Assembly: GCF_030063185.1 (NCBI RefSeq) | Contig: NZ_JASISP010000007.1 | Span: 62,001 to 126,000, forward strand | Reading direction: 5' to 3' | DNA length: 64,000 bases | From: Arthrobacter sp. H35-D1 | GTDB lineage: Bacteria > Actinomycetota > Actinomycetes > Actinomycetales > Micrococcaceae | Shown: positions 6,921 through 62,785 of the stretch, piece by piece | How the letters are laid out: the number at the start of each line of letters is the position of its first letter | Position numbering within the stretch: the stretch's first letter is position 1 | Translations under genes and position numbers: made by a program | Notes under the pieces: generated by a model | Told to the model about the DNA's origin: nothing | The model's input: only the letters and a program-made list of their open reading frames with translations | Databases searched by the model: none

Positions 6921-7253
6921 GGATGTCCCATTCCTGCGCACACACTGCAGAGAATGGTGTGCACGTCACTGACACAAGTTTATCGCTCCCCAGCCCGCCC
7001 GCGGCACTGGATACTGAGCTCGGAAAGGGCAGCCGAACGATGCCTTCAAACTCAAGGTGGGAGTGGGTGCCGTGTTCAGCTTTGCCGCCGACTTTGCAGG
7101 GTGAATGCCATGCAGTGTGGATGCCATTCACGATGAGCTTCCCAACCCGGACTGATCGTAAAAAATCCAGATCTTGGTAGCTCAGGGCATGGTCAAAAAG
7201 ACATCTGGCGCACAGCGCCCGCAAGTGGTTAACTAAGTGTGGAAAGTGACATC
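6921..7253. other. Intergenic region between divergent LAL regulator and secreted glycoside-hydrolase-like gene
   Basis: No gene is supported here. The AT content rises around 7140-7235, including an A-rich stretch near 7160 and a GTTAACTAAG segment near 7228, which fits promoters for the rightward secreted-protein gene. A GGAAAG site at 7241-7246 precedes ATG 7254. The leftward regulator promoter should lie around 6950-7010, but no clear -35/-10 pair was identified. Confidence 0.5.
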
Positions 7254-8888: not shown

Positions 8889-8934
8889 CTCCATCGGGTA
8901 TGGCTCGAGACCAGTCTGCCCTGCTCATTCAGGG

Positions 8935-9495
8935 TCACTTCGAAGTGAGTGCGTCTTTGAGAGTCAGGCTGAGTCCGGGTGGAACATCGACCTCGACGGC
9001 GAGCGCCTGCAGGGCGCGGCTCAAGTAGTTGCGTGCGGATGCCGCGAGGGCGATGTCGACGATCTCGCGGTCAGTGAACCCTGCCTTCCTTAGCCGCAGA
9101 CTGTCTGCGTCCGTCATCGACGACGAGTCCTTGCTGAGCTTCGTGGCGAAGTCCATCAGCGCAACGTCCGCTTCGCTGAGGGATGCGTCGTGGTAGTCGC
9201 GGACGATGCGCTCCAGCTGCTCCTCCTCGAATAGCTTCAGCGACTTGCGCCCGTGGGCGTGCCGGCACGACTGTGAGCCCACAGCGTCCGCGGCGGCCAG
9301 CGTCGCGAGCTCGAATCGGCGTTCGCCAAGCTGCGACACAATGGTGCGCATCAGCTGCTGGAAGGCACGGAAAGCCTCGGGATTGGCGGCCATCTTGCGG
9401 GTGTGGCTCGGCACGTAACCAAGGTCTTCCAACTCGGGGCCATACAGGTCGGCCACGCCATCGTCGGATTCGTCGGGGGTGTTGATGATGGACAT
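8935..9495 (-). CDS. AhpD-like / carboxymuconolactone decarboxylase family peroxidase-related protein
   Basis: The 186-residue helical protein matches the peroxidase-related branch of the AhpD/CMD superfamily: LGYVPSHTRKMAANPEAFRAF at the N-terminus, then the active-site helix QSCRHAHGRK, then a C-terminal TDREIVDIALAASARNYLSR helix. AhpD enzymes use a CxxC pair followed by a histidine three residues later. Here the first position is serine (SQSC) and only the second cysteine and the histidine remain. That is common in the peroxidase-related branch and argues against classic AhpD disulfide chemistry. It is transcribed leftward, convergent with the secreted protein. A tandem 16-bp repeat lies upstream of it. 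Confidence 0.8.
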   Translation of the reverse strand: MSIINTPDESDDGVADLYGPELEDLGYVPSHTRKMAANPEAFRAFQQLMRTIVSQLGERRFELATLAAADAVGSQSCRHAHGRKSLKLFEEEQLERIVRDYHDASLSEADVALMDFATKLSKDSSSMTDADSLRLRKAGFTDREIVDIALAASARNYLSRALQALAVEVDVPPGLSLTLKDALTSK

Positions 9496-9556
9496 GGAAG
9501 ATCCTCCTTGCGTTCTCCCACAATTGTTTCACCATCCGGTTCCCGCCGGTAGGGCG

Positions 9557-9604
9557 AGTTGCTGCACTGAACAGTTGCTGCACTGAACAGTTGCTTCATT
9601 GAAC
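9557..9604. repeat. Three tandem copies of a 16-bp unit
   Basis: Copies lie at 9557-9572, 9573-9588 and 9589-9604. The first two are identical (AGTTGCTGCACTGAAC) and the third differs at two positions. Across the joins the unit contains CAGT-N6-ACTG dyads. The array sits in the 189-bp gap between the leftward AhpD-like gene (start 9495) and the rightward hypothetical gene (start 9685). It could be a multi-site operator or simple slippage. Confidence 0.85.
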
Positions 9605-9684
9605 TTGGGCAAGCCAGCAGGCATTCCAGGAATTGAGGCGGATGCCTCACGCCACGGTGCAGATTCCGGAACGATACTGGGGAC

Positions 9685-10401
9685 ATGAAAACTACACCAC
9701 GACAATCAGTCACTGCAGCTGCAGCCGGCCCACGACTCGTCCAAGGGGCCGACGAACGATTCACCGGGTACGGGGTGATGGGAGTGCCCTACGCCAGCGG
9801 GCACTATCTAGTCCTTCGGGACATGCTGGCGAGCTCACTTGGTACGGCGTGCCGGTCGATCTGGCATCGAGATCCGACCGGACGGTGGACTACCTTCACG
9901 ACAGCAGATCCGGCTGTTAGTTGTCCTCGCTACTTCGGCTCGGTGGCCGAGGTCGAACAAGTCCCCTCGATAGTGGTCAGCTGGCGGGACGATTGGAGGG
10001 TCCACGCCACCATGGGCACCCGCCTCTCGTGGCGGCTAGCTCTGAAGGCGACATCGGCGACCCGTGCCATGACGACGATGGGCGCCGTGATGCCGCAGCG
10101 TGCCTGGAACAGTGACGCTGTGCTGGGCTCGATGGGACCGATGGCGGGCGGTGTCCTGCGCTCCGGGCGGGTCCGGCTGCACGGACGCACCCCCAACGGC
10201 CAAGGCTTCAAAGCAGCGCCACTTCAAGTGTGGCGAGTCATTGACGGAGACGCCGAGTTGGACGGAACCAGTCTGGGTGCCCTGGGTCCGTTGGCCGAAC
10301 AATCCCGGCTTGGCGACTTTTGGCTTCCCCAGCGGGGCCTGTTCTTCGTTGGCCAGGCACGGTTCACCGCCTCGGCGGCCACTGCGCCCGTGAATGGCTG
10401 A
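9685..10401 (+). CDS. Conserved hypothetical protein (238 aa)
   Basis: A GGGGAC site lies immediately before ATG 9685. The product is soluble, without a signal peptide or membrane segment. Recognisable stretches are ADERFTGYGVMGVPYASGHY near residues 23-42 and FGSVAEVEQVPSIVVSWRDD near residues 84-103. This type of protein occurs in Arthrobacter and mycobacteria as an unassigned protein with a beta-rich, lipocalin-like or hydroxyneurosporene-dehydrogenase-like feel, but I cannot assign a function. It stands in front of the HD-GYP-LuxR gene with a 114-bp gap, so co-transcription is possible but not shown. Confidence 0.7.
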   Translation: MKTTPRQSVTAAAAGPRLVQGADERFTGYGVMGVPYASGHYLVLRDMLASSLGTACRSIWHRDPTGRWTTFTTADPAVSCPRYFGSVAEVEQVPSIVVSWRDDWRVHATMGTRLSWRLALKATSATRAMTTMGAVMPQRAWNSDAVLGSMGPMAGGVLRSGRVRLHGRTPNGQGFKAAPLQVWRVIDGDAELDGTSLGALGPLAEQSRLGDFWLPQRGLFFVGQARFTASAATAPVNG

Positions 10402-26080: not shown

Positions 26081-26830
26081 TTAGTCCTGCTTGCGGGGCA
26101 ATGCGGATAGCACGTCGGCGTTGAGGAATGAGATCATGTCCAGCGGGATTCCGACAGGGCAAACGGCCGTGCATTCGCCGATCTGCGTGCAACCGCCGAA
26201 GCCCTCGGCATCGTGCTGGTTGACCATGGCCAGTGCCCGCTCGTGGCGTTCTGTCTGGCCTTGTGGGAGAACGCCCAGGTGGTTTGCCTTGGCACCGGTG
26301 AAGAGCATCCCCGAGCCATTGGGGCAGGCGGCGATGCACGCTCCGCAGCCGATGCAGACGGCGGCGTCGAAGGCGCGGTCGGCGTCTTTCTTGGGCACGA
26401 GTGTTGCCGCGGCATCCGGCGCCGATCCTGTCGGGGCGCTGATGTAGCCGCCCGCCTGGATGATCCTGTCCATGGCGCTTCGATCCACCACGAGGTCCCG
26501 GAGGATGGGGAAGGCTTGGGAACGCCAGGGCTCGACGTCGATGGTGTCGCCGTCGTTGAAGTGGCGCATGTACAGCTGGCAGGTGGTGGTGAGAGCCTCG
26601 GGGCCGTGGGCGATGCCGTTGATGACAAGGCTGCACATGCCGCAGATGCCTTCGCGGCAGTCGTGGTCAAAGGCGACGGGATCATCCCCGACGGCGGTGA
26701 GCTGGTCGTTGAGGACGTCGAGCATTTCCAAAAAGGACATGTCCGGTGAGATCCCGTCCACGCCGTAACTGACCATCCGGCCGGCTGCGGCTCGGTCGTG
26801 TTGGCGCCAGATGCGCACGGTGATGTTCAT
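26081..26830 (-). CDS. sdhB: Succinate dehydrogenase / fumarate reductase iron-sulfur subunit
   Basis: From ATG 26830 the protein has 249 residues. It carries the [2Fe-2S] cysteines in [11 protein letters not shown] with a further cysteine in TTTCQLYM, and the ferredoxin-like cluster motifs [16 protein letters not shown] and [16 protein letters not shown] for the [4Fe-4S] and [3Fe-4S] centres. It passes electrons from the flavoprotein to the membrane cytochrome. The start overlaps the sdhA stop by four bases. It is the last gene of sdhCAB. Confidence 0.95.
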
Positions 26831-28767
26831 TTGTAGCTCCTCTGGGCCAGCTCGACGTTGTGGTACTCCAGGTTCTCCTTGCGCAGCCGTGGAGGGGAGT
26901 CCTCGCCGGTGAATTCCCACGCTGCGACGTAGGCGAACTCAGCGTCGTCCCGCAACGCCTCGCCGTCGTCCGTTTGGCTTTCCGTGCGGAAGTGGCTGCC
27001 GCAGGATTCCGCCCGGTGAAGTGCATCGATGCACATGAGCTCGGCCAGTTCGAAGAAGTCGCCAACGCGGCCGGCCCTTTCCAGGGTCTGGTTCAGCTCC
27101 TCGTTCACACCCGTGACCTTGACGTCCGTCCAAAACTCTTCCTTGAGCGCGCGGATCAGACCAACGGCATGCTCAAGGCCCTCGGCGTTGCGTTCCATCC
27201 CGCAGTACTCCCACACGATGGCCCCAAGCTCCTTGTGGAACGAATCAACGGTCCTGCTGCCGTTGATGGAGAGGAAGCGCTCGAGGCGTCCGCGGACCGT
27301 GTCCAGCGCTTTCACTGCCTCCGGGTGGGAAGAGTCGGCGGCGGCTACCGGGTTTTTGGCCAAGTAGTCGTTGATGGTGTTGGGCAGAATGAAGTAGCCG
27401 TCAGCCAAGCCCTGCATCAGCGCGCTGGCGCCGAGCCTGTTGGCGCCGTGGTCGGAGTAGTTGGCCTCGCCGATGACGAACAACCCGGGGATGGAGCTCT
27501 CCAAATCGTAGTCGACCCACAACCCACCCATCGTGTAGTGCACGGCCGGGTAGATGCGCATCGGCACGCGGTACGGGTCCTCGTCGGTGATCTTTTGGTA
27601 CATGTCCAGGAGGTTGCCGTATTTCTCCTCGATCGCGTCCCTGCCCAGCCGGGCGATGGCGTCCGCCAAGTCGAGGTACACACCACGCCCGCCCGGTCCC
27701 ACCCCATGGCCGGAGTCGCACTGGTTCTTGGCAGCACGCGAGGCGACATCCCGGGGGACGAGGTTGCCGAAGGCCGGATATTGGCGCTCGAGGTAGTAAT
27801 CCCGCTCGGCGGCGGGAATGTCCCCGGGTGCACGGGTGTCCCCGGCCTTCACCGGCACCCAGATGCGCCCGTCATTGCGCAACGATTCGCTCATCAGCGT
27901 CAACTTTGACTGGTGTTCGCCGCTTACCGGAATGCACGTCGGGTGAATCTGCGTAAAACACGGATTGGCGAACAATGCGCCCTTGCGGTGTGCCCTCCAC
28001 GTGGCACTGGTGTTGCACCCCATGGCATTGGTGGAGAGGTAATAGACATTGGAGTAGCCTCCGGTGGCAAGCACGACGGCGTCGGCCAGGTGAGTCTCCA
28101 GCGTTCCGGACACCAAATCCCGAACCACAACGCCCCTCGCCTTGCCGTTGATGACGATGAGTTCGAGCATCTCGTGCCGGGTGTTTACTTCCACGGTTCC
28201 GGCGTTGACCTGGCGTTCGAGGGCCTGATAGGCGCCAAGCAGCAGCTGTTGGCCCGTCTGGCCGCGGGCATAGAACGTCCTGGACACCTGAACCCCGCCA
28301 AAGGATCGCGTGTCAAGCAGCCCGCCGTAGTCGCGGGCGAAGGGCACCCCTTGGGCAACGCACTGGTCGATGATCGATGAACTGACCTCTGCGAGCCGGT
28401 AGACGTTGGACTCCCTGGACCGGTAGTCGCCGCCCTTGACGGTGTCGTAGAAGAGACGGCGGATGCTGTCGCCGTCATTGCGATAGTTTTTGGCTGCATT
28501 GATCCCACCTTGGGCTGCAATGCTGTGGGCACGCCGGGGGCTGTCCTGGTAGCAGAAGCTCTTGACGTGGTAGCCGGCCTCGCCCAAGGTTGCTGCCGCC
28601 GAGGCGCCTGCCAGCCCGGTGCCGACCATGATGACGGAGAGCTTGCGCCGGTTGGCAGGGTTGATCAGCTTGGCACCAAAACGGCGGGCCTCCCACTGGT
28701 CTTGGAGAGGGCCGGCGGGAGCCTTCGCATCTTGAATCGGTTCTCCCACCGTGAACAATTGCTCCAT
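26827..28767 (-). CDS. sdhA: Succinate dehydrogenase / fumarate reductase flavoprotein subunit
   Basis: From ATG 28767 the product has 646 residues. The FAD-binding start is [20 protein letters not shown]. The covalent-flavin histidine lies in [18 protein letters not shown], and the active-site region includes [20 protein letters not shown] and [20 protein letters not shown]. These forms are typical of the type B (non-classical) enzyme. ATG 28779 is an alternative start. The chosen start shares one base with the sdhC stop. The open frame extends upstream to 29268 only as the shadow of sdhC. Confidence 0.95.
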
Positions 28768-29588
28768 CAGCTCACCCATCCTGCAAAGATCACCAACGGT
28801 GGAACCAAGAAGCCCACCAGAATCAACAGCGCAACAATGGTGGCCAGCTGGTTGAGGAAGCGTCGCCCTGCCACTGATTTGTTGGCGCCCAAGGAGGCAA
28901 AGGCGCTCCAGATCCCGTGGCGCAAATGGAAACCGAGGGCGATCAGGGCGATCACGTAGGAGAGCACCACCCACCAGATTTCGAAGCCGTTGACCATTCT
29001 TTGGTACGGGCTTGCCGAGGCGCCGCCGGGGGCAATGGCATTCACCGACAGGTGCAGGAGGTGGTAGATCACGAAAAGCCCGATGACCACCCCGCCCCAG
29101 CGCATCGTGAACGAGGCATAGCTTCGTTGGACGCCGCGGCGGTTCCTGGTGGTCTCGTATCTCCATCCGCCCTTGCCTGCCGTGGCATGGCGCGAGCGGT
29201 GCCAGAGGACGAACGCCGAAAAGATATGGAGCAGGACGCTGGCCAGCAGAATCACCCGCAGTATCCACAACGCTCCGGCGTGCGGCAGCAGGGGTTGACC
29301 GATCTCCCGCAAGTACGCAGCGTACCCGTCAAACCCCTGTTGGCCCTCGAAGACCTTCAGATTGCCGTACATGTGGGCCAGCAGGAAAAGGATCATGATC
29401 AGCCCGGTGACCGCCATCGCAGCATGCAACATCACCGATGACCGCACCGCGGTGGAGCGTACACTTCTCAGCTGGCCCGTTCCCATGTGCCAACCATAAG
29501 CCCGGCCCAGCCAACACGCCAGCATGCGATGAGACTTAGCCAAAGTGCTCGCGAAACGGGGCGCGTGCCGCATCTGCGAAATGCTCAT
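28767..29588 (-). CDS. sdhC: Succinate dehydrogenase cytochrome b subunit, type B
   Basis: ATG 29588 has an AGAGG site six bases upstream. ATG 29487 ([11 protein letters not shown]) is an alternative close to the first helix. The 273-codon gene encodes five membrane helices, with histidines in [53 protein letters not shown] and [17 protein letters not shown] that can bind two hemes b. This is the single-subunit, five-helix membrane anchor of type B complex II, so no separate sdhD is expected. It reacts with menaquinone in the membrane. Confidence 0.9.
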
Positions 29589-29707
29589 GAAACCTCTGAT
29601 CACTGCCGGGCACCCTTGGCGTGCTGGAGGCACGGGTTATGGATTGATGAAAGTCTGCGCGCAGGGGACTCACGAACTAAGAAACTGCTGAATATTCCTG
29701 GGCTTCA

Positions 29708-33705: not shown

Positions 33706-34758
33706 ATGGTGGACAGCAGACGGATCGTTGTGGCAGTTGCTGCGGCCATCGAACCGAGATGGGTGGCCGCCATCAAGGCGGTCGATGACCGCCTTGATGT
33801 GCGCTATGAACCGCAACTGTTGCCTGCGGCGGGCTTCCCCAGGCCCGGGAGCGGGATCGGCGGATCTCACCAGACCCTGGACCATGAATTCCACTGGAAG
33901 AAAACGTTGGCCGAGGCAGAGGTCGTCCTGGGTTGGCCCCAAAACACCCCGGAGGGCTTGGCGGACTTGGTGCGCAACAACACCGGGCTGCGCTGGGTAC
34001 AGGCAACGGTGGGTGATGCGGCCAGCCGGGTGGGGGCCGCCGGGTTGAGCGCCAAAGAACGAGACCGGTTACAGATTACCGGGTTCGAAAGCATCCTTGC
34101 CGGCCAGCGGGCGGCATTCGCAATGTTTGCCTTGCTCGCTTTTACCCAGGGACTTCCGCCGCTGGGCTACCCTTCCCTTGGGCACTCGGCGCAGCCTGAA
34201 ATGGCTGAGCTTGCCGGGCAGAGCCTACTTGTTGTGGGACTCGGCCCGACGGGCGCCGAAGTTGCCCGGCTGGGCAAGGCGTTCGGAATGCATGTGCTGG
34301 CTGTCACCCGGACAGGGAACGGGCAGGCGCCGAACGTGGACCAGCTGCGACCCGCACGGTTTTTGGGGGACCTGCTCCCGGTCTCCCATGCGCTTGTGTT
34401 GGCCTCGCCTCTAACGGAGAAGACCAGGGGCATGATCGGTGCCGGTGCGATGAGCCGGATGCGTGCCGATTCGGTATTGGTGAACATTGGGCACGGGGCT
34501 GTCATTGACGAGCACGCGCTGGTCAAGGGCCTGGAACACGGCCAGCCGGCAGCAGCCGTTCTGGATGCGTCTGCGGCTAAAACATTGTCATCCGGGAGCG
34601 CGCTCCGGTCCTTGTCCAACGTCTTCATCGGTCCCCCTGCTGCCGCCTTTTCCCGCTACGGGAACGAACGACTGATAGCCGTGTTTACGAAAAATCTCCG
34701 CAAGTACTTGGCCGGGGATGAACTTGTTGACTTGCTCGGGACGCCCTTGAACTACTGA
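33706..34758 (+). CDS. D-2-hydroxyacid dehydrogenase homologue lacking catalytic residues
   Basis: The protein has 350 residues from ATG 33706, with AGGA just upstream; TTG 33634 and ATG 33661 are alternatives without sites. The C-terminal two-thirds is a Rossmann domain with LLVVGLGPTGAEVARLGKAF and the later VLVNIGHGAVIDEHALVKGL and VFIGPPAAAFSRYGNERLIA. In active enzymes these positions hold Arg (NxxRG), Glu before PL and His (TPH). Here they read NIGHG, AAKTL and GPP, so the Arg, Glu and His are all absent. The cofactor site appears intact. A regulatory or binding role is likely. The last seven bases overlap the convergent FAD reductase gene. Confidence 0.75.
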   Translation: MVDSRRIVVAVAAAIEPRWVAAIKAVDDRLDVRYEPQLLPAAGFPRPGSGIGGSHQTLDHEFHWKKTLAEAEVVLGWPQNTPEGLADLVRNNTGLRWVQATVGDAASRVGAAGLSAKERDRLQITGFESILAGQRAAFAMFALLAFTQGLPPLGYPSLGHSAQPEMAELAGQSLLVVGLGPTGAEVARLGKAFGMHVLAVTRTGNGQAPNVDQLRPARFLGDLLPVSHALVLASPLTEKTRGMIGAGAMSRMRADSVLVNIGHGAVIDEHALVKGLEHGQPAAAVLDASAAKTLSSGSALRSLSNVFIGPPAAAFSRYGNERLIAVFTKNLRKYLAGDELVDLLGTPLNY

Positions 34759-36011
34759 GTGTGCGGGTGTTGTGCGGCGGCCAGGACGTCTGCCAACTCG
34801 GTGTCGGTGTTCGCAAGGTCCGTCGTGTCGACACGGCGGCCGCAGCGCACCAACGCCTTGATGGTCTCGGTCTGGTCCCAGACGTTGATGTTCATCCCAG
34901 CCAACACCTTGCGGTCTTTGAGCCAAAAGACAATGCATTCCAGTTTTTCCCTGTCCCCACGAAAGAGAACCTTGTCGCAGTCTCCCGGTGCCACGTAGCC
35001 GGAGTACTCCATTCCCAACTCGAACTGGTCGCTGTAGAAGTACGGCACTTCGTCATAGGATGCATCCATGCCCAGCATGGACCGGGCTGCCACAGCCGGC
35101 TGGCTCATTGCGTTGAACCAGTGCTCAATGCGGAGGTGTTTGCCTAGCAGGGGGTGGAAAGCGTTGGCGACATCCCCTGCGGCGTAGACATCTGGATCTG
35201 AAGTGCGCAGGTGCTCATCCACCACGATTCCATTGTCCAGGACCAGGCCGGCAGCCTCGGCCAATGAAGTGTTGGGTACGGCGCCGACGCCGACCACGAC
35301 CAGATCAGCAGCGATGCGCGACCCATCGGAGAGTTCCAGCCCTGCCGCCCGGCGCGGATCATCACCCAAGACTTTCCGGACCTGGACACCCAAGCGCAGG
35401 TCCACCCCGTGGGCGCGGTGCAAGTCCGCGAACAGTTCAGCTGCCTCGGCACCCAGCACGTGCAGCAGCGGCACCTCGCCGCGCTCGAGCACTATCACCT
35501 CAAGACCGGCGGCCCGGGCGGCAGCGGCGACTTCCAGTCCAATCCACCCGGCACCGATGATCACCACACGCGACGCGGTTGTAAAAGCGAACTTGAGCTG
35601 CATGCAATCCTCAATCCGCCGCAGGTAATATACGCGATGCGGGTCGGCGCCGGGTACGGGCAACAGCCGCGGTGACGCACCGGTAGCGATGAGCAGCTTG
35701 TCGTAACCCACTGGTTCCCCGACAGCCAAACTGACTCGATGGCCCGCACGCTCAATGGCCGTTACCTTTGTGCTGGTGCGTAGTTCGACGTCGTGCTCTG
35801 CATACCAGTCCTTGGGGTGAACATAGATCTTTTCTTTTTCAGACTTGCCTTGCAGATAGTCCTTGGAGAGCGGCGGCCGCTCATAGGGCCGTTCGGGTTC
35901 CTCCCCCATCAGCACCACGCGTCCGGTAAAGCCCTCTCCGCGCAGTGCCTCGGCGGCTTTTGCCCCCGCCAGCCCGGCGCCAACAATCGCGAAAGTCTCC
36001 CGTGTCCCCAT
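34752..36011 (-). CDS. FAD-dependent NAD(P)H ferredoxin/rubredoxin reductase-like oxidoreductase
   Basis: The 419-residue protein from ATG 36011 has an FAD motif (FAIVGAGLAGAKAAEALRGE), the NAD(P) motif (VVIIGAGWIGLEVAAAARAA), and GDVANAFHPLLGKHLRIEHW with the second FAD motif. PYERPPLSKDYLQGK is typical of the BenD/ferredoxin-reductase class. The C-terminal domain matches the reductase dimerisation domain. Such proteins pass electrons from NAD(P)H to a ferredoxin, rubredoxin or oxygenase. It lies 38 bp downstream of the cytochrome b561-molybdenum fusion gene and is probably its functional partner. Confidence 0.9.
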   Translation of the reverse strand: MGTRETFAIVGAGLAGAKAAEALRGEGFTGRVVLMGEEPERPYERPPLSKDYLQGKSEKEKIYVHPKDWYAEHDVELRTSTKVTAIERAGHRVSLAVGEPVGYDKLLIATGASPRLLPVPGADPHRVYYLRRIEDCMQLKFAFTTASRVVIIGAGWIGLEVAAAARAAGLEVIVLERGEVPLLHVLGAEAAELFADLHRAHGVDLRLGVQVRKVLGDDPRRAAGLELSDGSRIAADLVVVGVGAVPNTSLAEAAGLVLDNGIVVDEHLRTSDPDVYAAGDVANAFHPLLGKHLRIEHWFNAMSQPAVAARSMLGMDASYDEVPYFYSDQFELGMEYSGYVAPGDCDKVLFRGDREKLECIVFWLKDRKVLAGMNINVWDQTETIKALVRCGRRVDTTDLANTDTELADVLAAAQHPHTQ

Positions 36012-36049
36012 GTCCCCTCTTCTCTTGTCCCCACTCAGCGGTGATTCAT

Positions 36050-37885
36050 TTAGATGGATTGGCTGTAGCCAAAGAACTCGTGGTCGTTGTTGTAGCCGCC
36101 TTGGCCGCCGCCGACTCCGGAGAAATCCTCGACGAATTCGATGCCCTTGATCCACTTGACCATTTTGAACCCGAGCTGCACCTCGTTGCGCAGCCGCAGC
36201 GGCGCGCCGTGGCCGTAGGAGAGGGCCTGATCGTTCATGTCGAATGCGAGCATTGTCAGCCCATAATGCATCTGCTCGATGGGTTGGGCATCGTAGTACG
36301 TTCCCTCGTCCGATCCTTCGGCAAAGGAATAGAAGATCACCCATTTCGCCTCCGGTGCCGGCTTGACGAGATCCAGGATGGTCGCCATGGAGACGCCGCC
36401 CCATTTGGCGACCCCCGACCAGCCCTGGATGCAGAAGTGCTGGGTGATCTGCTCATGCATGGGGAGGGCACGCAACTGCATCAGGTCCAGGTCCACCGGG
36501 TTCTCCACCAGCCCGCTGATTTGCAGGTGGTAGTTGGCAAAGTTTCCGTCCCGCAGATCTGCGTACTCCCGGGATTCGGGATATTTGCCGTTGTGCCAGA
36601 AGTACGGGGAGATGTCCTTCTCCGTGTACTGGCCCGGCTTGGAATCAATATGCTCAAACAATCGTTGTGCGGGGCCAATCAGGGCGTACCCGATCCGCTG
36701 GACCTTCCGCGGGTAGCGGTACGTTAGCGGGGTGGCTGCCACCCATCCGACAATGACGACCACCATGGACGCGGCGAAGATCCAGAACCCTGTCCAGGAT
36801 TCGTTGTCCTGTGAGGCGTACATGTGATTGAGGTTGCGCAGCGCGCCCGTCGTCAGGACCAGCGTGACGTGGATGACGATGAAGAACACAAACCAGCACA
36901 TGACCAAAAAGTGCAGCGACCGGGCCACCTGAATGCTGAAAATGCTGCTGATCCACCTGAATTTGGTGGAAAGTGCCGGTGACATTCCAAGTCCTGTGAT
37001 TAGGGCCAGCGGGGCGGCGACGAAGACCGTGATGAAGTACGCGATGAGCTGCAGGCTGTTGTAGTTGGTCCAGCCGGTTTCCACAGGCCAGTTCAGCGAA
37101 AGATATTGGAGCGCGACCGAGATGGAATTGGGGATGACATCCCAGTGCAGCGGGACAAGGCGCAGCCACTGCCCGGTGGAAAAAAGCAGGACATAGAACA
37201 CCAGGCCGTTGAGCAGCCACAGCGTGTCGATGCCCAGGTGCCACCAACGCGCCAGCCCGATGGTGTGGCGCCTGCCCGGCAAGCCGATACCGGAGGGCAG
37301 GGTGATGGAGTCCTGCTTGGCGGTGTACAGCGGATCGGAGGGTACTGGTTTCTGCATCCGGAACCAGTTTCGCCCCGGGGTGCTGTGACGAGTCCAGTAC
37401 AACCGGGGGTGGTCGGCGAGGATCTGCCAGCCGGATCGGATGATGAAAATCATGAAAAACAGGTTCAGGAAGTGCTGCCAGCCCAGCCATGCCGGGAAAC
37501 CCACAGGTGCACCTTCGGGAAGGCTTGATGTCCCGGGGTACGCCGTCATGAAGGCCTGCACCCCCGGGAGCCCGCGGATGCCCTTCGCCACCGCGATCCC
37601 GATGACAAGCAGCACGAAACCGATGGGAATCAGCCAGAGCAGGTTGAACCATTTGCCGGCACCGATCCGCACCCGGGGAGCGACCCCGTACTGTGCCGGA
37701 ATCGAGCCGGCCCACTCAGCGTCGATGACGTCGTCGTCCTTGTGCGTCAGCTCCGACTGGAAGCTCTTATAGGCGTGCGGCCCCTCATCGGCTGCCGGTG
37801 GCGGCAGCTGAGCGTGCGCATCCTCCGGAGAGAAGGATGACGTTTCTGGTGGGAGTTCCGGATGAGGGCCTGGGGGAGGTTCCAT
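36050..37885 (-). CDS. Cytochrome b561-type membrane domain fused to a sulfite-oxidase-fold molybdenum domain
   Basis: The 611-residue protein has a disordered, acidic/proline-rich N-terminus (about 1-75), then a multi-helix domain to about residue 390 with heme-type histidines (FPAWLGWQHFLNLFF, HTIGLARWWHLGIDTLWLLN, VARSLHFLVMCWFVFFIVIH). The C-terminal 190 residues form a sulfite-oxidase-type molybdopterin domain with the Mo-ligand cysteine in HFCIQGWSGVAKWGG (about residue 485) and SYGHGAPLRLRNEVQLGFK. After the last helix comes YRYPRKVQR, so the molybdenum domain is probably cytosolic. No Tat motif is seen. The FAD reductase follows 38 bp downstream. Substrate unknown. Confidence 0.85.
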   Translation of the reverse strand: MEPPPGPHPELPPETSSFSPEDAHAQLPPPAADEGPHAYKSFQSELTHKDDDVIDAEWAGSIPAQYGVAPRVRIGAGKWFNLLWLIPIGFVLLVIGIAVAKGIRGLPGVQAFMTAYPGTSSLPEGAPVGFPAWLGWQHFLNLFFMIFIIRSGWQILADHPRLYWTRHSTPGRNWFRMQKPVPSDPLYTAKQDSITLPSGIGLPGRRHTIGLARWWHLGIDTLWLLNGLVFYVLLFSTGQWLRLVPLHWDVIPNSISVALQYLSLNWPVETGWTNYNSLQLIAYFITVFVAAPLALITGLGMSPALSTKFRWISSIFSIQVARSLHFLVMCWFVFFIVIHVTLVLTTGALRNLNHMYASQDNESWTGFWIFAASMVVVIVGWVAATPLTYRYPRKVQRIGYALIGPAQRLFEHIDSKPGQYTEKDISPYFWHNGKYPESREYADLRDGNFANYHLQISGLVENPVDLDLMQLRALPMHEQITQHFCIQGWSGVAKWGGVSMATILDLVKPAPEAKWVIFYSFAEGSDEGTYYDAQPIEQMHYGLTMLAFDMNDQALSYGHGAPLRLRNEVQLGFKMVKWIKGIEFVEDFSGVGGGQGGYNNDHEFFGYSQSI

Positions 37886-37977: not shown

Positions 37978-39381
37978 CTATGTTTTCGTCGATGGTTTGT
38001 GGCGGATCAGTTTGTTCTTGTCCTCAAGTTCCAGCCCGCTGACCTCAGGAAGCAGGGCCTTGACGAACCAGAACGACAGGACGGCGAAGAACGCGAACCC
38101 GGCATACACGAAGCCAAGGCCGACGGCGGCGCTCATGATCGGAAAGAGCAGTGTCACGATGAAATTGAAGATCCAGTTGAAAGCTGTCGCGATTCCCAAG
38201 GCAAGGCCACGAATCTTGTTCGGAAAAACCTCCCCCAAGACCACCCACATCACCGGCCCCCACGTGGCGGCAAAGAAGATGACGAACAGATTGGCGCCGA
38301 CCAACGCGATCGGTCCCCACGGCGCAGCGAGCGTGAGTGAGTCCCCTGAACCCGTGGCCTGGGAGAAGGAGATTGCGGCCGCTATCAGTCCCACAAACAT
38401 GCCGGCGGAACCAACCAGCAACAGGCGCTTGCGCCCAACCTTGTCGACGAAGAAGATGGCAACGAACGTGAGCAGCACATTGATGGTGGCGGTGATGACG
38501 GATGTTGTGAACGAGTCTTCCTGGCTGAAACCCACCGACTGCCACAACGTGGTGGAGTAATAGAAGATCGCATTGATGCCCACCAGCTGTTGAAAGGCAG
38601 CCATGCCGATGCCAATCCACAAAATGGGTTGCAGACCGAGTGCGGGGCCGCGCAAATCACGGTAGGTGGAACGCCGTTCGTTTTCCAGGCTCTCCTGAAT
38701 GTCCTTCAGACGCTGGTCCGGATTCGCCGGATTGGCAACACGGCGGATAACGGCCAGCGCATCCTTGCTCCGACCCTTGCGGATGAGGAAGTGCGGCGAC
38801 TCGGGAATCGTCAAGGAGACCAGGCCGTAGACGACGGCGGGAATGACCCCGACCAGCAGCATCCACCGCCAGGCAGGCATGCCCCACCACAGCTCGTTGC
38901 CGGCGCCGCCGGCAACCCTTGCCAGGCCGGCGTCGGAAAGCAGCGCCAGGAAGATGCCCAGTGTGATGGCCAATTGCTGGAGCGAGCTGAGTGCGCCGCG
39001 CATCCGTGCAGGGGCCATCTCACCGATGTAGGCGGGTGCTATGACCGAGGCGATGCCAATGGCCAGCCCGCCAATGAACCTCCACGACATCAGGTCCCAA
39101 ATGGCGAAGGCATACCCCGAGCCGATCGAACTGGCAACAAACAAGCATGCTGCCAAAACCATGACGGGCTTGCGGCCCCAAACATCGGCAAGCTGGCCGG
39201 CGAACCAAGCGCCGACGGCACACCCGATCAGCGTGATGGCGACGGTGATCCCCACTGCTGCGGAGCCTAGATTGAAGTCCGACTGGATCGAATTGACCGC
39301 TCCGTTGATGACGGAGGTGTCGAAACCAAACAACAGACCGCCCAATGCGGCCGCGATGGTGATGATGATGATTTTTCCCAT
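37978..39381 (-). CDS. Sugar porter family MFS transporter
   Basis: From ATG 39381 the protein has 467 residues and 12 predicted helices. It starts IIITIAAALGGLLFGFDTSV, the sugar-porter beginning, and has the conserved ADVWGRKP loop between helices 2 and 3, PESPHFLIRKGR after helix 6, the QQLVGINAIFYYS signature in helix 7, and FVDKVGRKRLL in the second half. The open frame extends upstream to 40545 only as the shadow of tkt. It should import a hexose or pentose by proton symport. It is divergent from tkt, so uptake and pentose-phosphate use may be co-controlled. Confidence 0.93.
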   Translation of the reverse strand: MGKIIIITIAAALGGLLFGFDTSVINGAVNSIQSDFNLGSAAVGITVAITLIGCAVGAWFAGQLADVWGRKPVMVLAACLFVASSIGSGYAFAIWDLMSWRFIGGLAIGIASVIAPAYIGEMAPARMRGALSSLQQLAITLGIFLALLSDAGLARVAGGAGNELWWGMPAWRWMLLVGVIPAVVYGLVSLTIPESPHFLIRKGRSKDALAVIRRVANPANPDQRLKDIQESLENERRSTYRDLRGPALGLQPILWIGIGMAAFQQLVGINAIFYYSTTLWQSVGFSQEDSFTTSVITATINVLLTFVAIFFVDKVGRKRLLLVGSAGMFVGLIAAAISFSQATGSGDSLTLAAPWGPIALVGANLFVIFFAATWGPVMWVVLGEVFPNKIRGLALGIATAFNWIFNFIVTLLFPIMSAAVGLGFVYAGFAFFAVLSFWFVKALLPEVSGLELEDKNKLIRHKPSTKT

Positions 39382-39777: not shown

Positions 39778-41640
39778 ATGAATGAAGATCAGTTTGACCT
39801 TGCCCGGAGACTGGCCGTGCAATTGCGTGTGGATTCCATCCGGTGCAGCACCAGCGCCGGCTCCGGACATCCCACCTCGTCCTTGTCGGCGGCAGACTTG
39901 ATGGCCGTCCTGCTGACTGAGCATCTGCGCTATGACTGGGAGAAGCCCGATTCCCCGGACAATGATCACTTGGTCTTCTCCAAGGGCCACGCGTCCCCGC
40001 TGCTTTACTCCATGTACCGGGCCGTCGGGGTGGTCGACGAGGAAGAGCTCATCAACACGTACCGCAGGCTGGGCGCGCGTCTGGAGGGGCACCCCACCCC
40101 GGCACTGCCGTGGGTTGATGTGGCCACGGGTTCCCTGGGTCAGGGCCTGCCCGATGCCGTCGGGATCGCCTTGGCTGGCAAATACCTGGACAAATTGCCT
40201 TACCATGTGTGGGTTTTGTGCGGTGACAGCGAGACTGCCGAAGGCTCCATCTGGGAGGCCCTGGACAAGGCCGGCTATTACAAGCTGGGGAACCTGAGCG
40301 CAATTGTGGACATCAACAGGCTGGGCCAGCGCGGCCCCACCGAACTCCAATGGGACGTGCAGCGGTATGCCGCCCGGGTGGAAGCATTTGGTGCCCGGCC
40401 CATCGTCGTGGACGGCCACGACCTGGTTGCCATCGACGCGGCCCTGGGCCAGGCCCGCGACAGCATCGATATGCCCACGGTAATCCTGGCGAAGACCGTC
40501 AAGGCCAAGGGCGTGCCGGAGCTGGAAGACAAGAACGGCTGGCACGGAAAGGCCCTCCCTCCCGAGATGGCGGAACGGGCCATCTCAGCGTTGGGCGGAC
40601 CCACCAACTTGCGGATCACCACTGCTTCGCCCAGCCCGGGCACGGCGGACCCGGCCAGCAAGGCCAACCCGGGTGCCGACGTCGTTCTTCCCAGCTATGA
40701 ACTCGGCGAGAAGGTGGCCACCCGGGTGGCCTTCGGTGCAGCCATCGCCGCTCTGGCGGCCCGCCCCGAAGTTGTTGTCCTTGACGGGGAAGTTGGGAAC
40801 TCCACGCACGCTGAAGAATTTCAGAAGGTGTGCCCGGAACGGTACTTTGAAATGTTCATCGCCGAACAGCAGCTCGTCGCATCGGCCGTGGGCTTCGCGG
40901 TGCGCGGCTACGTCCCCTTTGCTTCCACTTTCGCCGTGTTTTTCTCCCGCGCTTTCGACTTCATCCGCATGGCCGGGATCTCGGAAGTCAACATTCGCTT
41001 GGTGGGGTCCCACGCCGGAGTTGAGATCGGGGAGGACGGACCGTCCCAGATGGCGTTGGAAGACCTTGCGTCCCTGCGTGCAGTGCACGGTTCCGTTGTC
41101 CTCTACCCAGCCGACGCCGCCTGTGCCGCCCGGCTCACCCTGACCATGGCAGACACCGACGGAATTGTGTACCTGCGCACCACAAGGGGCGCCTACCCGG
41201 TGATCTACCCGGCGGGGGAGACGTTCCCGATCGGTGGCTCAAAGGTCCACCATGCCGGAACCGAGGACCAGGTGGCGCTGATCGGGGCCGGTGTGACGCT
41301 GCACGAGTGCCTGGCCGCGGCCGAGGAACTCGGGAAGCTGGGCGTCAAGGCCCGGGTCATCGACGCCTACTCGGTCAAGCCCATCGACAAGGCTGCCCTG
41401 GTTGAAGCCTGCCGGGTCACCGGCAGCCGCCTGGTGGTGGTGGAGGACCACTATCCCGAAGGGGGACTGGGCAGCGCCGTGCTCGAAGCGCTGGCCAATG
41501 CCTCCGTGCCTGCACTGCATGTTGCACACCTCGCAGTGCAGGGCCTGCCCGGCTCCGGCAAGCCGGCCGAGCTCCTTGACGCCGCGGGCATATCCTGCCG
41601 ACACATTGTGGCGGCCGCGCGCGAACTGGCCGGGCACTGA
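39778..41640 (+). CDS. tkt: Transketolase (short type)
   Basis: From ATG 39778 the product has 620 residues, near the human-type rather than the 660-700-residue bacterial length. The thiamine diphosphate signature is present (CGDSETAEGSIWEALDKAGY, GDS with ADINRLGQ-like DINRLGQRG), along with SAGSGHPTSSLSAADLMAVL, YFEMFIAEQQLVASAVGFAV (acidic activation residue) and SHAGVEIGEDGPSQMALEDL. The frame open from 39382 is upstream noise. It moves two-carbon units between sugar phosphates and forms an operon with tal (16 bp gap). Confidence 0.94.
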   Translation: MNEDQFDLARRLAVQLRVDSIRCSTSAGSGHPTSSLSAADLMAVLLTEHLRYDWEKPDSPDNDHLVFSKGHASPLLYSMYRAVGVVDEEELINTYRRLGARLEGHPTPALPWVDVATGSLGQGLPDAVGIALAGKYLDKLPYHVWVLCGDSETAEGSIWEALDKAGYYKLGNLSAIVDINRLGQRGPTELQWDVQRYAARVEAFGARPIVVDGHDLVAIDAALGQARDSIDMPTVILAKTVKAKGVPELEDKNGWHGKALPPEMAERAISALGGPTNLRITTASPSPGTADPASKANPGADVVLPSYELGEKVATRVAFGAAIAALAARPEVVVLDGEVGNSTHAEEFQKVCPERYFEMFIAEQQLVASAVGFAVRGYVPFASTFAVFFSRAFDFIRMAGISEVNIRLVGSHAGVEIGEDGPSQMALEDLASLRAVHGSVVLYPADAACAARLTLTMADTDGIVYLRTTRGAYPVIYPAGETFPIGGSKVHHAGTEDQVALIGAGVTLHECLAAAEELGKLGVKARVIDAYSVKPIDKAALVEACRVTGSRLVVVEDHYPEGGLGSAVLEALANASVPALHVAHLAVQGLPGSGKPAELLDAAGISCRHIVAAARELAGH

Positions 41641-41656
41641 CAGAGAAGAAAATACG

Positions 41657-42745
41657 ATGAAACCCACACAACAGCTTCACGAGTTCGGCCAGAGCCTCTG
41701 GGTGGACAACATCACCCGGAACCTGCTCGATTCCGGCACGCTTGAGCGCTATATTGCCGAGGACTCGATCACCGGGTTGACGTCCAATCCGACCATTTTT
41801 GACAAGGCCATCGGCGCTGGTGCCGACTATGACGATGACATAGCCGCCGGCAAACGTGCCGGGAAGAAAGATGAGGAGGTCTTCTTCGCTCTCGCGCTGG
41901 CCGACTTGCGGCGGGCCGCGGATCTTTTCGCGCCGATTCATGCGCGCACCGACGGGGTGGACGGTTGGGTCTCCCTTGAAGTCTCCCCGCTGCTGGCCCG
42001 CGATACGGATGCCACCGTTGAGCAAGCCAAGGCGCTGCACGCCAGGTCGGCGCGACCGAATATTTTCATCAAGATCCCCGGGACGGACGAGGGCCTGCCA
42101 GCCATCGAGGAATGCATCTTTGCCGGTGTCCCCATCAACGTGACGCTGCTGTTCTCTGCCGGGCAATATCAGAAGGCCGCCGAGGCGTATCTTCGCGGCA
42201 TCGAGCGGCGGGTGGCCGCCGGGTTGAACCCCGTTGTCCCCTCGGTTGCTTCGCTGTTCGTCAGCCGGTGGGACAAGGCTGTCGACGGCAGGGTCCCGGG
42301 CCATCTTGAAGACCGTTTGGGCATCGCCGTGTCAACGCTTGCCTACAAGGCCTACCGGACGTTGCTTGATTCGCCGCGCTGGGGCAGGTTGGCCAACGAG
42401 GGCGCCAGGCCGCAACGCCTGCTCTGGGCCAGCACCTCCACGAAGAACCCGGATGCGCCGGATATTTTGTACGTTCAGGCATTGGCCGCACCCTTCACCG
42501 TCAACACCATGCCGGAGGCGACGCTTTCTGCCTTCGGAGACCACGGAGTGGTGGGCGACCTGGCAGCGGCCAAAGCTGGGGCCGCAAAGCAGGCCTTGGC
42601 GTCTTTCGCCGAGGTCGGCATCGATCATGACGAGCTGGCCGGGCAACTCCAGCGTGAAGGAACGGAATCCTTTGACGCCTCGTGGAGGAACCTGCTGGCC
42701 AGCATCGGAGGCAAGGGCGACAAACTGGCCGCCAGTGGCCAGTAG
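41657..42745 (+). CDS. tal: Transaldolase
   Basis: The protein has 362 residues from ATG 41657, usual for actinobacterial transaldolase. It carries GLTSNPTIFDKAI, VSLEVSPLLARDTDATVEQA, NIFIKIPGTDEGLPAIEECI with the Schiff-base lysine in the FIKIPGT strand, GVPINVTLLFSAGQY, and LWASTSTKNPDAPDILYVQA. It transfers dihydroxyacetone units between sugar phosphates. It is the middle gene of tkt-tal-oxidoreductase (28 bp to the next start). Confidence 0.96.
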   Translation: MKPTQQLHEFGQSLWVDNITRNLLDSGTLERYIAEDSITGLTSNPTIFDKAIGAGADYDDDIAAGKRAGKKDEEVFFALALADLRRAADLFAPIHARTDGVDGWVSLEVSPLLARDTDATVEQAKALHARSARPNIFIKIPGTDEGLPAIEECIFAGVPINVTLLFSAGQYQKAAEAYLRGIERRVAAGLNPVVPSVASLFVSRWDKAVDGRVPGHLEDRLGIAVSTLAYKAYRTLLDSPRWGRLANEGARPQRLLWASTSTKNPDAPDILYVQALAAPFTVNTMPEATLSAFGDHGVVGDLAAAKAGAAKQALASFAEVGIDHDELAGQLQREGTESFDASWRNLLASIGGKGDKLAASGQ

Positions 42746-42772: not shown

Positions 42773-43495
42773 ATGTCACTGCCAAGAACCAAGCTCGTGA
42801 AAAAGGAAGCAGCAGCTGAAGGGACCATGCTGTTCCAATTTGAAAAGCCGGAAGGCTTTACGTACAAGGCCGGTCAATTCGCCGACTACACGCTGATCGA
42901 CCCGACGGACACCGATGCGGAGGGAAACACCCGCGGATTCACCCTCTCCAGCGCCCCGTGCGAGCCCAATCTGATGTGCACAACCCGCATGCGCGACACG
43001 GCATTCAAGCGGGTTCTCAAGGACCTGCCGATCGGGACGGAGGTGGAGCTGGACGCTCCCTACGGATCCTTCACCCTGCACAACAAGGTGGACAGGCCCG
43101 CTGTTTTTTTGACCGGGGGAATTGGAATCACGCCCGTGCGCAGCATCATCTTGCAGTCGGTCCATGACAAGACCGGACACAGGATTATTGTGTTCTACTC
43201 CAACAAGCGCCCGGAGGATGCGGCGTTTCTGGACGAACTGGGACGCGTCGCCGACGGCGAAGCCAATATCACCGTCGTGGCCACCATGACCGAGCCTGAA
43301 AAGTCTCGACATGGCTGGACCGGGGAAACCGGGTACATCGACCAAGCCATGCTGGCCAGGCACATCGAGGGCCTGGCCGCGCCGATCTACTATCTTTGCG
43401 GGCCTGCAGGCATGGTGACGGCCATGCGCAGCCTCCTGAACAGTGCAGGCGTCGACGACGACGACATCCGCACCGAAGAATTCACCGGTTACTAA
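42773..43495 (+). CDS. FAD/NAD(P)-binding ferredoxin reductase-type oxidoreductase
   Basis: The 240-residue protein is a single ferredoxin-NADP reductase unit without a 2Fe-2S domain. It has the FAD motif RGFTLSSAP near residue 45, GSFTLHNKVDRPAVFLTGGI with GGIGITPVRSIILQ, and LCGPAGMVTAMRSLLNSAGV near the C-terminus, followed by DDDDIRTEEFTGY. It is transcribed with tkt and tal, whose activity provides pentose phosphates and supports NADPH formation, so a role in passing NAD(P)H electrons to a carrier is plausible. The partner is unknown. Confidence 0.88.
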   Translation: MSLPRTKLVKKEAAAEGTMLFQFEKPEGFTYKAGQFADYTLIDPTDTDAEGNTRGFTLSSAPCEPNLMCTTRMRDTAFKRVLKDLPIGTEVELDAPYGSFTLHNKVDRPAVFLTGGIGITPVRSIILQSVHDKTGHRIIVFYSNKRPEDAAFLDELGRVADGEANITVVATMTEPEKSRHGWTGETGYIDQAMLARHIEGLAAPIYYLCGPAGMVTAMRSLLNSAGVDDDDIRTEEFTGY

Positions 43496-60989: not shown

Positions 60990-61456
60990 CGTTCGACGAC
61001 GACCACGGCTGCCACTGCCACCAGGACCAGAACACCCCAGAAGACACCCAAGGCCAGCGCGTAGTTCCCCTGCAGAACAGTGGCGTTCACCGGAGGATTC
61101 CCGGCCACTTGTTGGGCCGCCACCAGCGGCACGACGATCAGTGTGCAGACGGCCGCAAGCACCAACGCGCCGCGGATCAGCGCGCGGGAGAGTGGGCGCA
61201 GGTGCCGGCCCGCACAGCGCACACCGTGTCCTGTCGCCGTGGACACCGGCACCACCACGCCGTCGTGCAACAACAACGCCACGGCCATCCATGCCGCAAG
61301 GCCCAAAAGCGCAGCCAGGCCAAGGTGGGTGAGCAGGGAATAGGCGCCAAAGCCCACCGCGACGGCGCCCAGGGCTCCCACGCCGAGACGAACCGTGGTC
61401 ATTGGGCTCATTGTTGGAGTCGGTGCAGTAGTTGGAGTCGTGCGTGGCTTTTTCAC
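60950..61456 (-). CDS. Small integral membrane protein
   Basis: GTG 61456 overlaps the stop of the molybdenum oxidoreductase gene (GTGA) and has GAGG six bases upstream, so 168 residues are translated by coupling. Four membrane helices are predicted at about residues 23-43, 45-66, 90-110 and 130-152, with a basic C-terminus (VVVERYSRRNSRQ). No family is recognised. It probably works with the oxidoreductase, perhaps as an accessory or assembly protein. Confidence 0.75.
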   Translation of the reverse strand: MKKPRTTPTTAPTPTMSPMTTVRLGVGALGAVAVGFGAYSLLTHLGLAALLGLAAWMAVALLLHDGVVVPVSTATGHGVRCAGRHLRPLSRALIRGALVLAAVCTLIVVPLVAAQQVAGNPPVNATVLQGNYALALGVFWGVLVLVAVAAVVVVERYSRRNSRQTTRS

Positions 61457-62673
61457 AGTACCTCGATGCGCTGAACCCATTTGGTTTGCAAGACACCGGG
61501 ACGGCCCGGCGCCATGATTCGGGCCGGATATCCGTGGTCCAAATCCAGCGGGGCACCGTTGAGTTCCAGGACCAGAAGCGTCTTGTCATTCCCGGTGTAG
61601 GGGGCGGGCATGGTCATCACCCGGTAGTTTCCGTTCTTTTCCATGCTGACGACTTCCAGTTCGGAATCTGCCGGTGCACCGACCTCGGCCAGCAGGTCCT
61701 TGATGCGAACACCACGCCACAACGCCGATTGGCTCCACCCCTCCACGCACGCCACCGTCAGCACGTGTTCGGTCTGGGGCAAGGCTCTGAGCTGGGGCAG
61801 GGAGAATGTCCTTTCCCCGTTCTTTGTGGTGACGCTCATGGTCCAATCCGTCCCGATGTCGCCCTGCGCGACCTGCGCCTCCATGGCAGTGCGGTTCACG
61901 GGGACTCCCTGCGGGCCGGTGTTCTGACGACGGGGAGCAAAGATATTCAGGGGGGCGAGCCAAGCGAAGGACTGGCCCGCGGTGCTCAGCACAACGAAGG
62001 CCGTGGTGACCGTGACCGTGGACAGGAAGGCCCGCCGTCCCATTCCTGCCGGTTGCTTGTCTTCGGTACGCCCATCGTTGGGACTTTCATCGTGTGAATG
62101 CTTGTCATTGTCACGTTCGTCGGGTTTCCCTTCCGTCCCGTTGCGGCGCCAATGACGGGTGATGACGGGCAGCTTCACTGCAATGTGAAGGGCCAACGAA
62201 CCAACCACCACCCAGGCCAACCAGTAGTGCGTTTGACGGAAGGGGAACGTCCACGGATACCACTTGTAGGTGTTGAGCAAGCCGGTGGCGACTTCCACCA
62301 GCGAGGCAGCCACAAAAAGCCCGATTGACGCTCGTTCCAGTGCGTTGATCCAGGACTTGATCGGCGGCCATTGCAACAGGAGCGGGAAAACCGACCACAA
62401 CTTGGCGAGCAGCAGGGGGATGGCGGCAATCCCAGCCGCCACATGGACACCCTGGGTTAGCTGGTAAAGCCCGGCAGGCCACGTGGGATAGAGCATCCAC
62501 GCAGGAGGGTCCTGCAGCAAGTGGCTGAACAGGCCCGTGGCGAAACAGATGACGAAGGCCGCACCCAGCCAACGGCCCAACACCACTGTCAGCCGCTTGC
62601 TTCGGACGGGGGAAGCAAATTTGCCGGCGGTGGCATCCATCCTGTCCTGGAGAAATCTGGTCATGCGATCCAT
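61453..62673 (-). CDS. Membrane-anchored molybdopterin oxidoreductase with cytochrome b561 domain and internal Tat motif
   Basis: From ATG 62673 the protein has 406 residues. Residues about 25-185 form four or five helices with heme-type histidines (LFSHLLQDP, QGVHVAAGIAAIPLLLAKLW, HYWLAWVVVGSLALHIAV). A charged linker follows (DERDNDKHSHDESPND), then MGRRAFLSTVTVTTAFVVL, a twin-arginine-type motif leading into a final helix. The last 150 residues are a sulfite-oxidase-fold Mo domain with the Mo-ligand cysteine in VACVEGWSQSALWRG (about residue 309) and GYPARIMAPGRPGV. The Mo domain should be outside, unlike the fusion at 36050-37885. Sulfur-oxide substrates are known for relatives such as YedY/MsrP. 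Confidence 0.88.
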   Translation of the reverse strand: MDRMTRFLQDRMDATAGKFASPVRSKRLTVVLGRWLGAAFVICFATGLFSHLLQDPPAWMLYPTWPAGLYQLTQGVHVAAGIAAIPLLLAKLWSVFPLLLQWPPIKSWINALERASIGLFVAASLVEVATGLLNTYKWYPWTFPFRQTHYWLAWVVVGSLALHIAVKLPVITRHWRRNGTEGKPDERDNDKHSHDESPNDGRTEDKQPAGMGRRAFLSTVTVTTAFVVLSTAGQSFAWLAPLNIFAPRRQNTGPQGVPVNRTAMEAQVAQGDIGTDWTMSVTTKNGERTFSLPQLRALPQTEHVLTVACVEGWSQSALWRGVRIKDLLAEVGAPADSELEVVSMEKNGNYRVMTMPAPYTGNDKTLLVLELNGAPLDLDHGYPARIMAPGRPGVLQTKWVQRIEVL

Positions 62674-62785
62674 ACTGAAATTCCAGCACTTTCGGGTTCG
62701 CGATGGGGCGTTCAAACCTTACGAAAGCCGAACGGGGCAGACCCGCGGCTCCCCAAAGGGGAGTTTCCGAGGCAGGATCAAGAGT

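Follow-up and report, generated by a model that had tools for sequence, protein, structure and literature searches.

The analysed window is a stretch of 64,000 nucleotides from Arthrobacter sp. H35-D1 (contig NZ_JASISP010000007.1, positions 62,001 to 126,000). The gene examined here lies on its minus strand and encodes a cytochrome b561-like membrane domain joined to a molybdenum (Mo) domain, referred to below as the fusion, and is followed by a gene for a flavoprotein reductase. The features of this locus, in window positions, are:

36050..37885, minus strand: b561-like/Mo fusion of 611 residues with an ATG start, comprising a proline-rich N-terminal tail, a predicted six-helix diheme b561-like membrane domain and a C-terminal MsrP-like Mo domain
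36716..37654, minus strand: membrane domain of the fusion, residues 78-390, six helices, with His138, 216, 325 and 339 present in 94/94 fusions
36125..36541, minus strand: Mo domain of the fusion, Pfam match of PF00174 to residues 449-587, with the ligand Cys485 in HFCIQGWS
34752..36011, minus strand: flavin adenine dinucleotide (FAD)/NAD(P) reductase of 419 residues, putidaredoxin reductase/BphA4 type, following the fusion after 38 bp

A 611-residue b561-Mo fusion had been proposed from the sequence alone, and the open reading frame at 36050-37885 on the minus strand bears this out. The gene is genuine and conserved: it was found at full length in 12 of 23 genomes of the same genus and at least 541 relatives were confirmed, among at least 589 matched stretches in named genomes. 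The best 80 of these confirmed relatives were used for the neighbourhood analysis. Their taxa were mostly Actinomycetota, with others in Myxococcota, metagenome-assembled genomes (MAGs) labelled Dormiibacterota, Acidobacteria, Gemmatimonadetes and Proteobacteria. At an identity of at least 53% the fusion was present in 12 of the 296 genomes of the class sample. A remnant of the fusion C-terminus, 82 residues at 82% identity with an internal stop, was seen at G021:C1:3520935-3521180 in a genome that does not contain the full gene.

Domains and predicted orientation of the fusion

The Pfam scan of the fusion gave PF00174 (105 bits over residues 449-587) and PF01292 as the only matches, and the proline-rich N-terminal tail was variable. 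The closest structures to the Mo domain, by sequence and by Foldseek, were 1xdq/1xdy, with MsrP/YedY as the best Foldseek match at an E value of ~1e-11, while structure comparison using VIA gave Z scores of 20-21 for SorA, MsrP and nitrate reductase domains. The NCBIfam MsrP profile scored 71 bits, under its cut-off of 207. The putative Mo ligand Cys485 was retained in 93 of 94 fusions, the single gap occurring in L099, a broken-up copy, and the surrounding CIQGWS aligned with CVEAWS of MsrP. Plant sulfite oxidase and SorA have a longer loop after this cysteine than the fusion (alignment with 1ogp and 2blf), and the Mo-co dimerisation domain was not found in the Pfam scan of the fusion; on these two grounds an identity as sulfite oxidase or sulfite dehydrogenase (SorA, SorT, SoxC) was set aside. 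Judged by sequence and model, the Mo domain is MsrP-like and not sulfite-oxidase-like.

The structure model used for the membrane domain covered residues 61-611 and was built from 85 sequences, giving a predicted local distance difference test score (pLDDT) of 88.4 and a predicted template modelling score of 0.87; an earlier one, based on 15 orthologues, was of low quality (pLDDT 51) and was not used. The membrane part superposed on FdnI (1kqf_C) with a Z score of 11.7 over 180 residues, model residues 68-304 matching FdnI residues 8-192, and on HyaC (4gd3) with a Z score of 9.1. Cytochrome bc1 chains came next, with Z scores of ~8-9 and root mean square deviations of mostly 5-6, and 6q9e (Z 9.4) tied with HyaC. 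NarI was absent among the 50 VIA matches listed, which has no bearing either way. In the model, fusion helices 2-5 match FdnI helices I-IV, so that helix 2 corresponds to FdnI helix I, and the sequence alignments to PF01292 (residues 132-352, 28 bits against a cut-off of 30.1) and TIGR02125 (20 bits against 121.5) pair these helices too. His138, His216, His325 and His339, the candidate heme ligands, were compared in three sets: all four were present in 94/94 non-redundant fusion orthologues, in 11/11 stand-alone relatives of the membrane domain and in 10 of 11 proteins of a class at 40% identity.

The orientation of the protein was predicted from the distribution of positive charge. Predicted inside loops of the 94 fusions carried a mean of 20.8 lysines and arginines compared to 5.2 in outside loops, the sign of the difference being identical in 94/94 and its smallest value 11; the stand-alone relatives had the same pattern in 11/11. 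An automatic hydropathy and charge count placed the C-terminus in the cytosol for 94/94 fusions, 11/11 stand-alone proteins and 10/11 of the 40% class, with one tie. Most of the 40% class lack helix 1, yet their predicted core orientation was the same. The sequence YRYPRKVQR, pointed out earlier as following the last helix, was confirmed in the translation.

Two kinds of control were used. FdnI and HyaC, whose topology is known, were both called correctly by the charge count. Six proteins of the Sco3746 type (P0003 and five relatives), assigned to this type by their architecture and a twin arginine before the last helix without comparison to Sco3746 itself, were called with the N-terminus inside in 6/6, and for 5/6 the count returned five helices with an external Mo domain; in the sixth, L210, it placed an extra helix within the Mo domain. 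Across helices 2-5 of the fusion the predicted pattern of charge is opposite to that in FdnI and HyaC.

The claim that the fusion has no twin-arginine translocation (Tat) motif held up, as no twin arginine was conserved among 15 aligned orthologues. Within the GRRHTIG of the fusion, R205 varies and R206 alone is invariant in the same alignment, and no arginine pair precedes helix 6. The charge pattern puts both ends of the protein inside, and the Mo domain is accordingly predicted to face the cytosol. Helix 2 corresponds to FdnI helix I but would run in the opposite direction if the charge rule holds, and we infer that helices 2-5 form a diheme core of the FdnI/HyaC type that is upside down relative to those proteins.

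A third b-Mo fusion of the same genome, of 434 residues and belonging to the ~40% class, was observed at L071 (G000:C19) 8509-9813. It is missing the stretch bearing helices 4-5, its first ligand position is tyrosine, and three of the four heme-ligand histidines are gone. It lies between genes for a thiamine pyrophosphate-requiring enzyme and a trehalase-like protein, as is also the case at L101 and L102.

Stand-alone relatives beside electron transfer flavoprotein genes

Relatives of the membrane domain that carry no Mo domain were present in the same genome and in related ones, with 40-54% identity over the membrane domain across the 11 fetched loci and up to 62% over its second half. By translated search, the gene immediately upstream in 8 of these 11 loci, in the same orientation, was etfA, for an electron transfer flavoprotein (ETF) subunit, itself preceded by etfB; in a ninth (L082) the etfB-etfA pair was ~7 kb away. 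A Pfam check of the ETF domains covered L073 and L076, the other etf genes being assigned by similarity. The arrangement is:

L073 (G000:C23) 6473-9198, also L074-L080: etfB-etfA-b gene order, with the stand-alone b gene directly behind the ETF genes

The canonical ETF:quinone oxidoreductase (ETF-QO) domain PF05187 was found in none of the 36 genomes of the bacterial family searched (0/36). Because EtfBA is cytosolic, the membrane family most likely takes up electrons from the cytosolic side, and the etfB-etfA-b genes are, from their order, a candidate ETF:menaquinone link. In excerpts of the published work on mycobacteria, EtfD is the link between ETF and menaquinone (PMC13083937). Matches to CCG in the present genome, in frames of 295 and 980 residues, were considered as EtfD, and neither was judged to be one, without closer examination of the frames. 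No description of a b561-EtfBA pair was found in the open-access literature with a few search terms. Three of the stand-alone b proteins (L077:8632-10497, L078 and L079) have N-terminal extensions of ~300 residues; that of L077 is rich in proline and alanine and contains the repeated segment RRGLPRVPGGEPWPPAG.

The earlier placement of the Mo domain in the cytosol is thus supported as a prediction, by the cytosolic C-terminus in the 94 orthologues and by the stand-alone proteins behind etfB-etfA. The opposite arrangement, with the Mo domain outside, the core in the FdnI orientation and the positive-inside rule failing, would make the fusion a relative of Sco3746 that depends on Sec only. It is consistent with the match of the core helices to FdnI and HyaC, whose N-termini are inside, and in passages of the source on these proteins both Sco3746 and MsrPQ have an external Mo part (PMC5449189). 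We regard it as very unlikely, given that all 94 fusions have the opposite charge pattern, that relatives of the membrane part adjoin etfB-etfA, whose products are cytosolic, and that the fusion is without a Tat motif although Tat is the system that exports Mo-loaded domains.

More broadly, a whole family of FdnI-like diheme b proteins may be upside down, a cytosol-facing menaquinone port with electron flow coupled to the proton motive force. Its user would be either EtfBA, with the stand-alone form replacing the missing ETF-QO in this bacterial family, or, in the present protein, the fused MsrP-like Mo domain. We put this generalisation forward tentatively, as a possibility that falls a little short of an even chance.

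The reductase and the gene neighbourhood

The reductase gene is separated from the fusion by 38 bp (36012-36049), and the 550-residue open reading frame in the mechanical list is the same gene extended to an in-frame upstream ATG. The protein matched PF07992 and PF14759 and scored 262 bits to 1q1r. It therefore has the FAD and NAD domains with Reductase_C that characterise putidaredoxin reductase and BphA4, and its type is that of putidaredoxin reductase, BphA4 and AndAa. The sequence-only reading had named a BenD/ferredoxin-reductase-like flavoprotein 38 bp on; the spacing and the ferredoxin-reductase type stand, while the name BenD, which we take to belong to a different enzyme, does not.

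Neighbours of the 80 named loci were counted by translated search with at least 40% of the query aligned, in flanks of at most 7 kb that were sometimes cut shorter by contig ends, so that these counts are lower bounds. A reductase homologue was present in the flank of 6/80 loci and was the next gene in 4/80: Arthrobacter sp. E3, A. psychrochitiniphilus, Nocardia vaccinii and an Acidimicrobiia MAG. Of the 12 fusion genomes of the genus, four had it as the gene following the fusion and two had it at a distance of 4-13 kb; G008 and G020 of these four were taken to be the two named Arthrobacter records, so the two counts overlap. Nine of the 12 genomes with the fusion, and 0 of the 11 others of the genus, had a reductase orthologue of at least 68% identity, giving a Fisher p of 2.7e-4 (5e-4 without the present genome) with phylogeny ignored. 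In the class sample, where only six candidates per genome were scored, a reductase of at least 60% identity was found in 3 of 12 fusion genomes and 5 of 284 others (p = 0.003, or 0.02 without the present genome). The reductase tree grouped the Arthrobacter copies together and, having long branches and several weak forks, was used for that only. The association between reductase and fusion is read as real but loose.

The reductase had been described as dedicated to the fusion, in a chain running from NAD(P)H through the adjacent flavoprotein to the Mo/heme protein and quinone. The 38-bp spacing, the restriction of the genus orthologue to genomes with the fusion and the adjacency in Nocardia vaccinii and the Acidimicrobiia MAG are in its favour. 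The survey found this adjacency to be rare family-wide, the outcome that the sequence-only reading had itself named as refuting it, and further observations go against a dedicated donor: the orthologue at 68% identity or above is missing from three of the 12 fusion genomes of the genus, the gene lies beside SdhCAB and far from the fusion in G001 and G022, and relatives at L190, L191 and L198 adjoin a transaldolase-like gene with no fusion nearby. Reductases of the putidaredoxin reductase type normally pass electrons to ferredoxin, and no ferredoxin or oxygenase gene was noticed beside this one, the genome not having been searched for ferredoxins. Such a dedicated chain is considered unlikely. 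The reductase looks like an occasional, facultative companion and not a fixed partner, and is perhaps a second point of electron entry to the fusion.

The other annotated features of the window are:

37978..39381, minus strand: sugar-porter transporter of the major facilitator superfamily (MFS), 92 bp upstream of the fusion, which it also adjoins in G020 and G005
39778..41640, plus strand: transketolase, divergent from the MFS-fusion-reductase cluster
41402-42745: transaldolase open reading frame, following transketolase
42773-43495: protein of 240 residues with the NAD-binding domain PF00175, behind transketolase and transaldolase; another possible reductase
26081..29633, minus strand: succinate dehydrogenase (Sdh) cluster downstream, with SdhB at 26081-26920, SdhA at 26827-29268 and Sdh cytochrome b at 28767-29633 (the latter two as mechanical open reading frames)
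61453..62715, minus strand: second b561-Mo fusion, 420 residues, with GRRAFL before its last helix; by architecture of the Sco3746 (Sec-Tat) kind, with the Mo domain outside

A small cupin was found in 17 of the 80 loci; in 15 of them it was no more than 3 kb from the fusion, and in 8 it shared the strand of the fusion at a distance of up to 400 bp. This protein is conserved, has ~115 residues and scores under the Pfam cut-off (L110:8953-9312 and 16 further loci); in 8 loci it lies directly behind the fusion. Aconitase shared the strand of the fusion, no more than 400 bp away, in 4/80, and MoaA was the next gene in 4/80, followed in two by a ThiS/MoaD-like gene. Within 3 kb were a CRP-like regulator in 4/80, SdhA in 4/80 (one of them, L114, at just 28% identity) and transketolase in 3/80. 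PF00175-type proteins were also seen in 5/80. The CRP/FNR-type regulators at L087:7682-8653 and L109:5996-6901 adjoin the fusion, are encoded on the other strand and have a CAQPHHCP motif near the N-terminus in common.

The presence of two fusions within 64 kb had been called unusual. A Sco3746-type fusion was present in 4 of the 23 same-genus genomes and occurred together with the 611-residue fusion in 2, G000 (25 kb apart) and G005 (28 kb apart), compared to 2.1 expected. This is the level of chance, and the pairing is not meaningful in general.

Proposed electron route and comparison with known systems

Both domain folds, the four conserved heme-ligand-like histidines, the conserved Mo-ligand cysteine, the six helices and the charge pattern of the fusion were obtained by computation. 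The fusion is probably a membrane molybdoenzyme that is linked to quinone and whose MsrP-like catalytic domain lies in the cytosol. The heme of His216 and His325 would face this Mo domain, and the heme of His138 and His339 would lie with the quinone site near the outer face, the equivalent of the quinone-side heme being placed outside from the known location of the FdnI quinone site. Electrons moving between menaquinone and the Mo centre in the cytosol would have to traverse the membrane. Reduction of a substrate with menaquinol would conserve energy and build proton motive force, as in NarGHI, while oxidation of a mild reductant would consume it, with the membrane potential pushing electrons into menaquinone. 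In Bacillus succinate dehydrogenase the membrane potential has likewise been proposed to drive electrons into menaquinone.

Several points weigh against the proposed enzyme and its inverted core. Profile alignments with FdnI, HyaC and the P0003 family were null, nothing significant being obtained directly against the single FdnI and HyaC sequences, so the helix match rests on the structure comparison, PF01292 and TIGR02125. The Z score of the FdnI match is attainable by chance for helical bundles, and the two profiles score under their curated cut-offs, PF01292 just and TIGR02125 far. The loop charge count was opposite in 1/11 of the 40% class. The topology, hemes and Mo of the fusion family are predictions from sequence and model, the quinone site and the direction of electron flow are inferred, and the varied neighbours of the 80 loci indicate no single substrate.

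The MsrP-like active site makes a reductase, acting on an S-oxide, N-oxide or similar compound, slightly more likely as the direction. A cytosolic dehydrogenase that reduces quinone, oxidising for example sulfite or an aldehyde, would agree with the SUOX fold of the domain, with a SLAC1/TDT transporter gene that in 6/80 loci is encoded on the same strand no more than 400 bp away, and with the b-domain relatives beside EtfBA, which presumably work in the oxidising direction. The short MsrP-type loop after the Mo-ligand cysteine, without the extended segment of sulfite oxidases, and the result of the scan for a Mo-dimerisation domain argue against it, and no further sulfur gene was recognised among the annotated neighbours. 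This dehydrogenase appears somewhat unlikely, and the menaquinol-driven reductase remains slightly favoured.

MsrPQ and Sco3746, the heme-b/Mo pairs of this type that have been described, act outside the cytosol, and no inward-facing b561-Mo fusion of this kind was found described in the open-access literature with a few search terms. A conserved, widespread inward-facing version, if true, would add a new kind of wiring to molybdenum chemistry and a naturally occurring example of an inverted respiratory cytochrome b. The stand-alone proteins beside EtfBA suggest a possible fatty-acid electron route to menaquinone in a bacterial family where the canonical ETF-QO domain was found in 0/36 genomes. 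The upside-down core is the point most worth testing.

MsrP works outside the cytosol. The fusion has a Mo domain related to MsrP, MsrPQ (YedYZ) being closest in Mo fold and CxxxWS motif, and a heme-b membrane partner is present in both. However, MsrP is an exported, soluble subunit and its separate partner MsrQ belongs to another membrane family, whereas the fusion has no conserved twin arginine and would be one cytosol-facing chain with a b561/FdnI-like membrane domain. The view that it is not a characterised YedYZ system is therefore supported.

Sco3746 contains heme b and Mo cofactor and is targeted by both Sec and Tat; its five helices and its need for Tat were shown experimentally, with the twin arginine directly before the last helix, in the passages considered of Tooke et al. 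(2017; PMC5449189). Like the fusion, the Sco3746 family is actinobacterial and combines a membrane heme-b domain with a C-terminal Mo domain. It differs in having five helices, the arginine pair before the last and the Mo domain outside, compared to six helices, no such pair and a Mo domain predicted inside for the fusion, and profile comparison of the P0003-family and fusion membrane parts gave no detectable similarity.

The diheme b subunits FdnI and HyaC have in common with the fusion a four-helix core with four ligand-like histidines, as expected of a PF01292-like cytochrome b. The core of such cytochromes has its N-terminus inside and the partner enzyme outside; in the fusion the predicted orientation is opposite, a first and a last helix are added, and the catalytic domain is fused and predicted to be cytosolic. 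In NarGHI and the diheme succinate:menaquinone reductases a cytosolic catalytic part is wired through two hemes to menaquinone, as would be the case in the fusion, but their catalytic domains are unrelated to that of the fusion and the analogy is one of wiring only.

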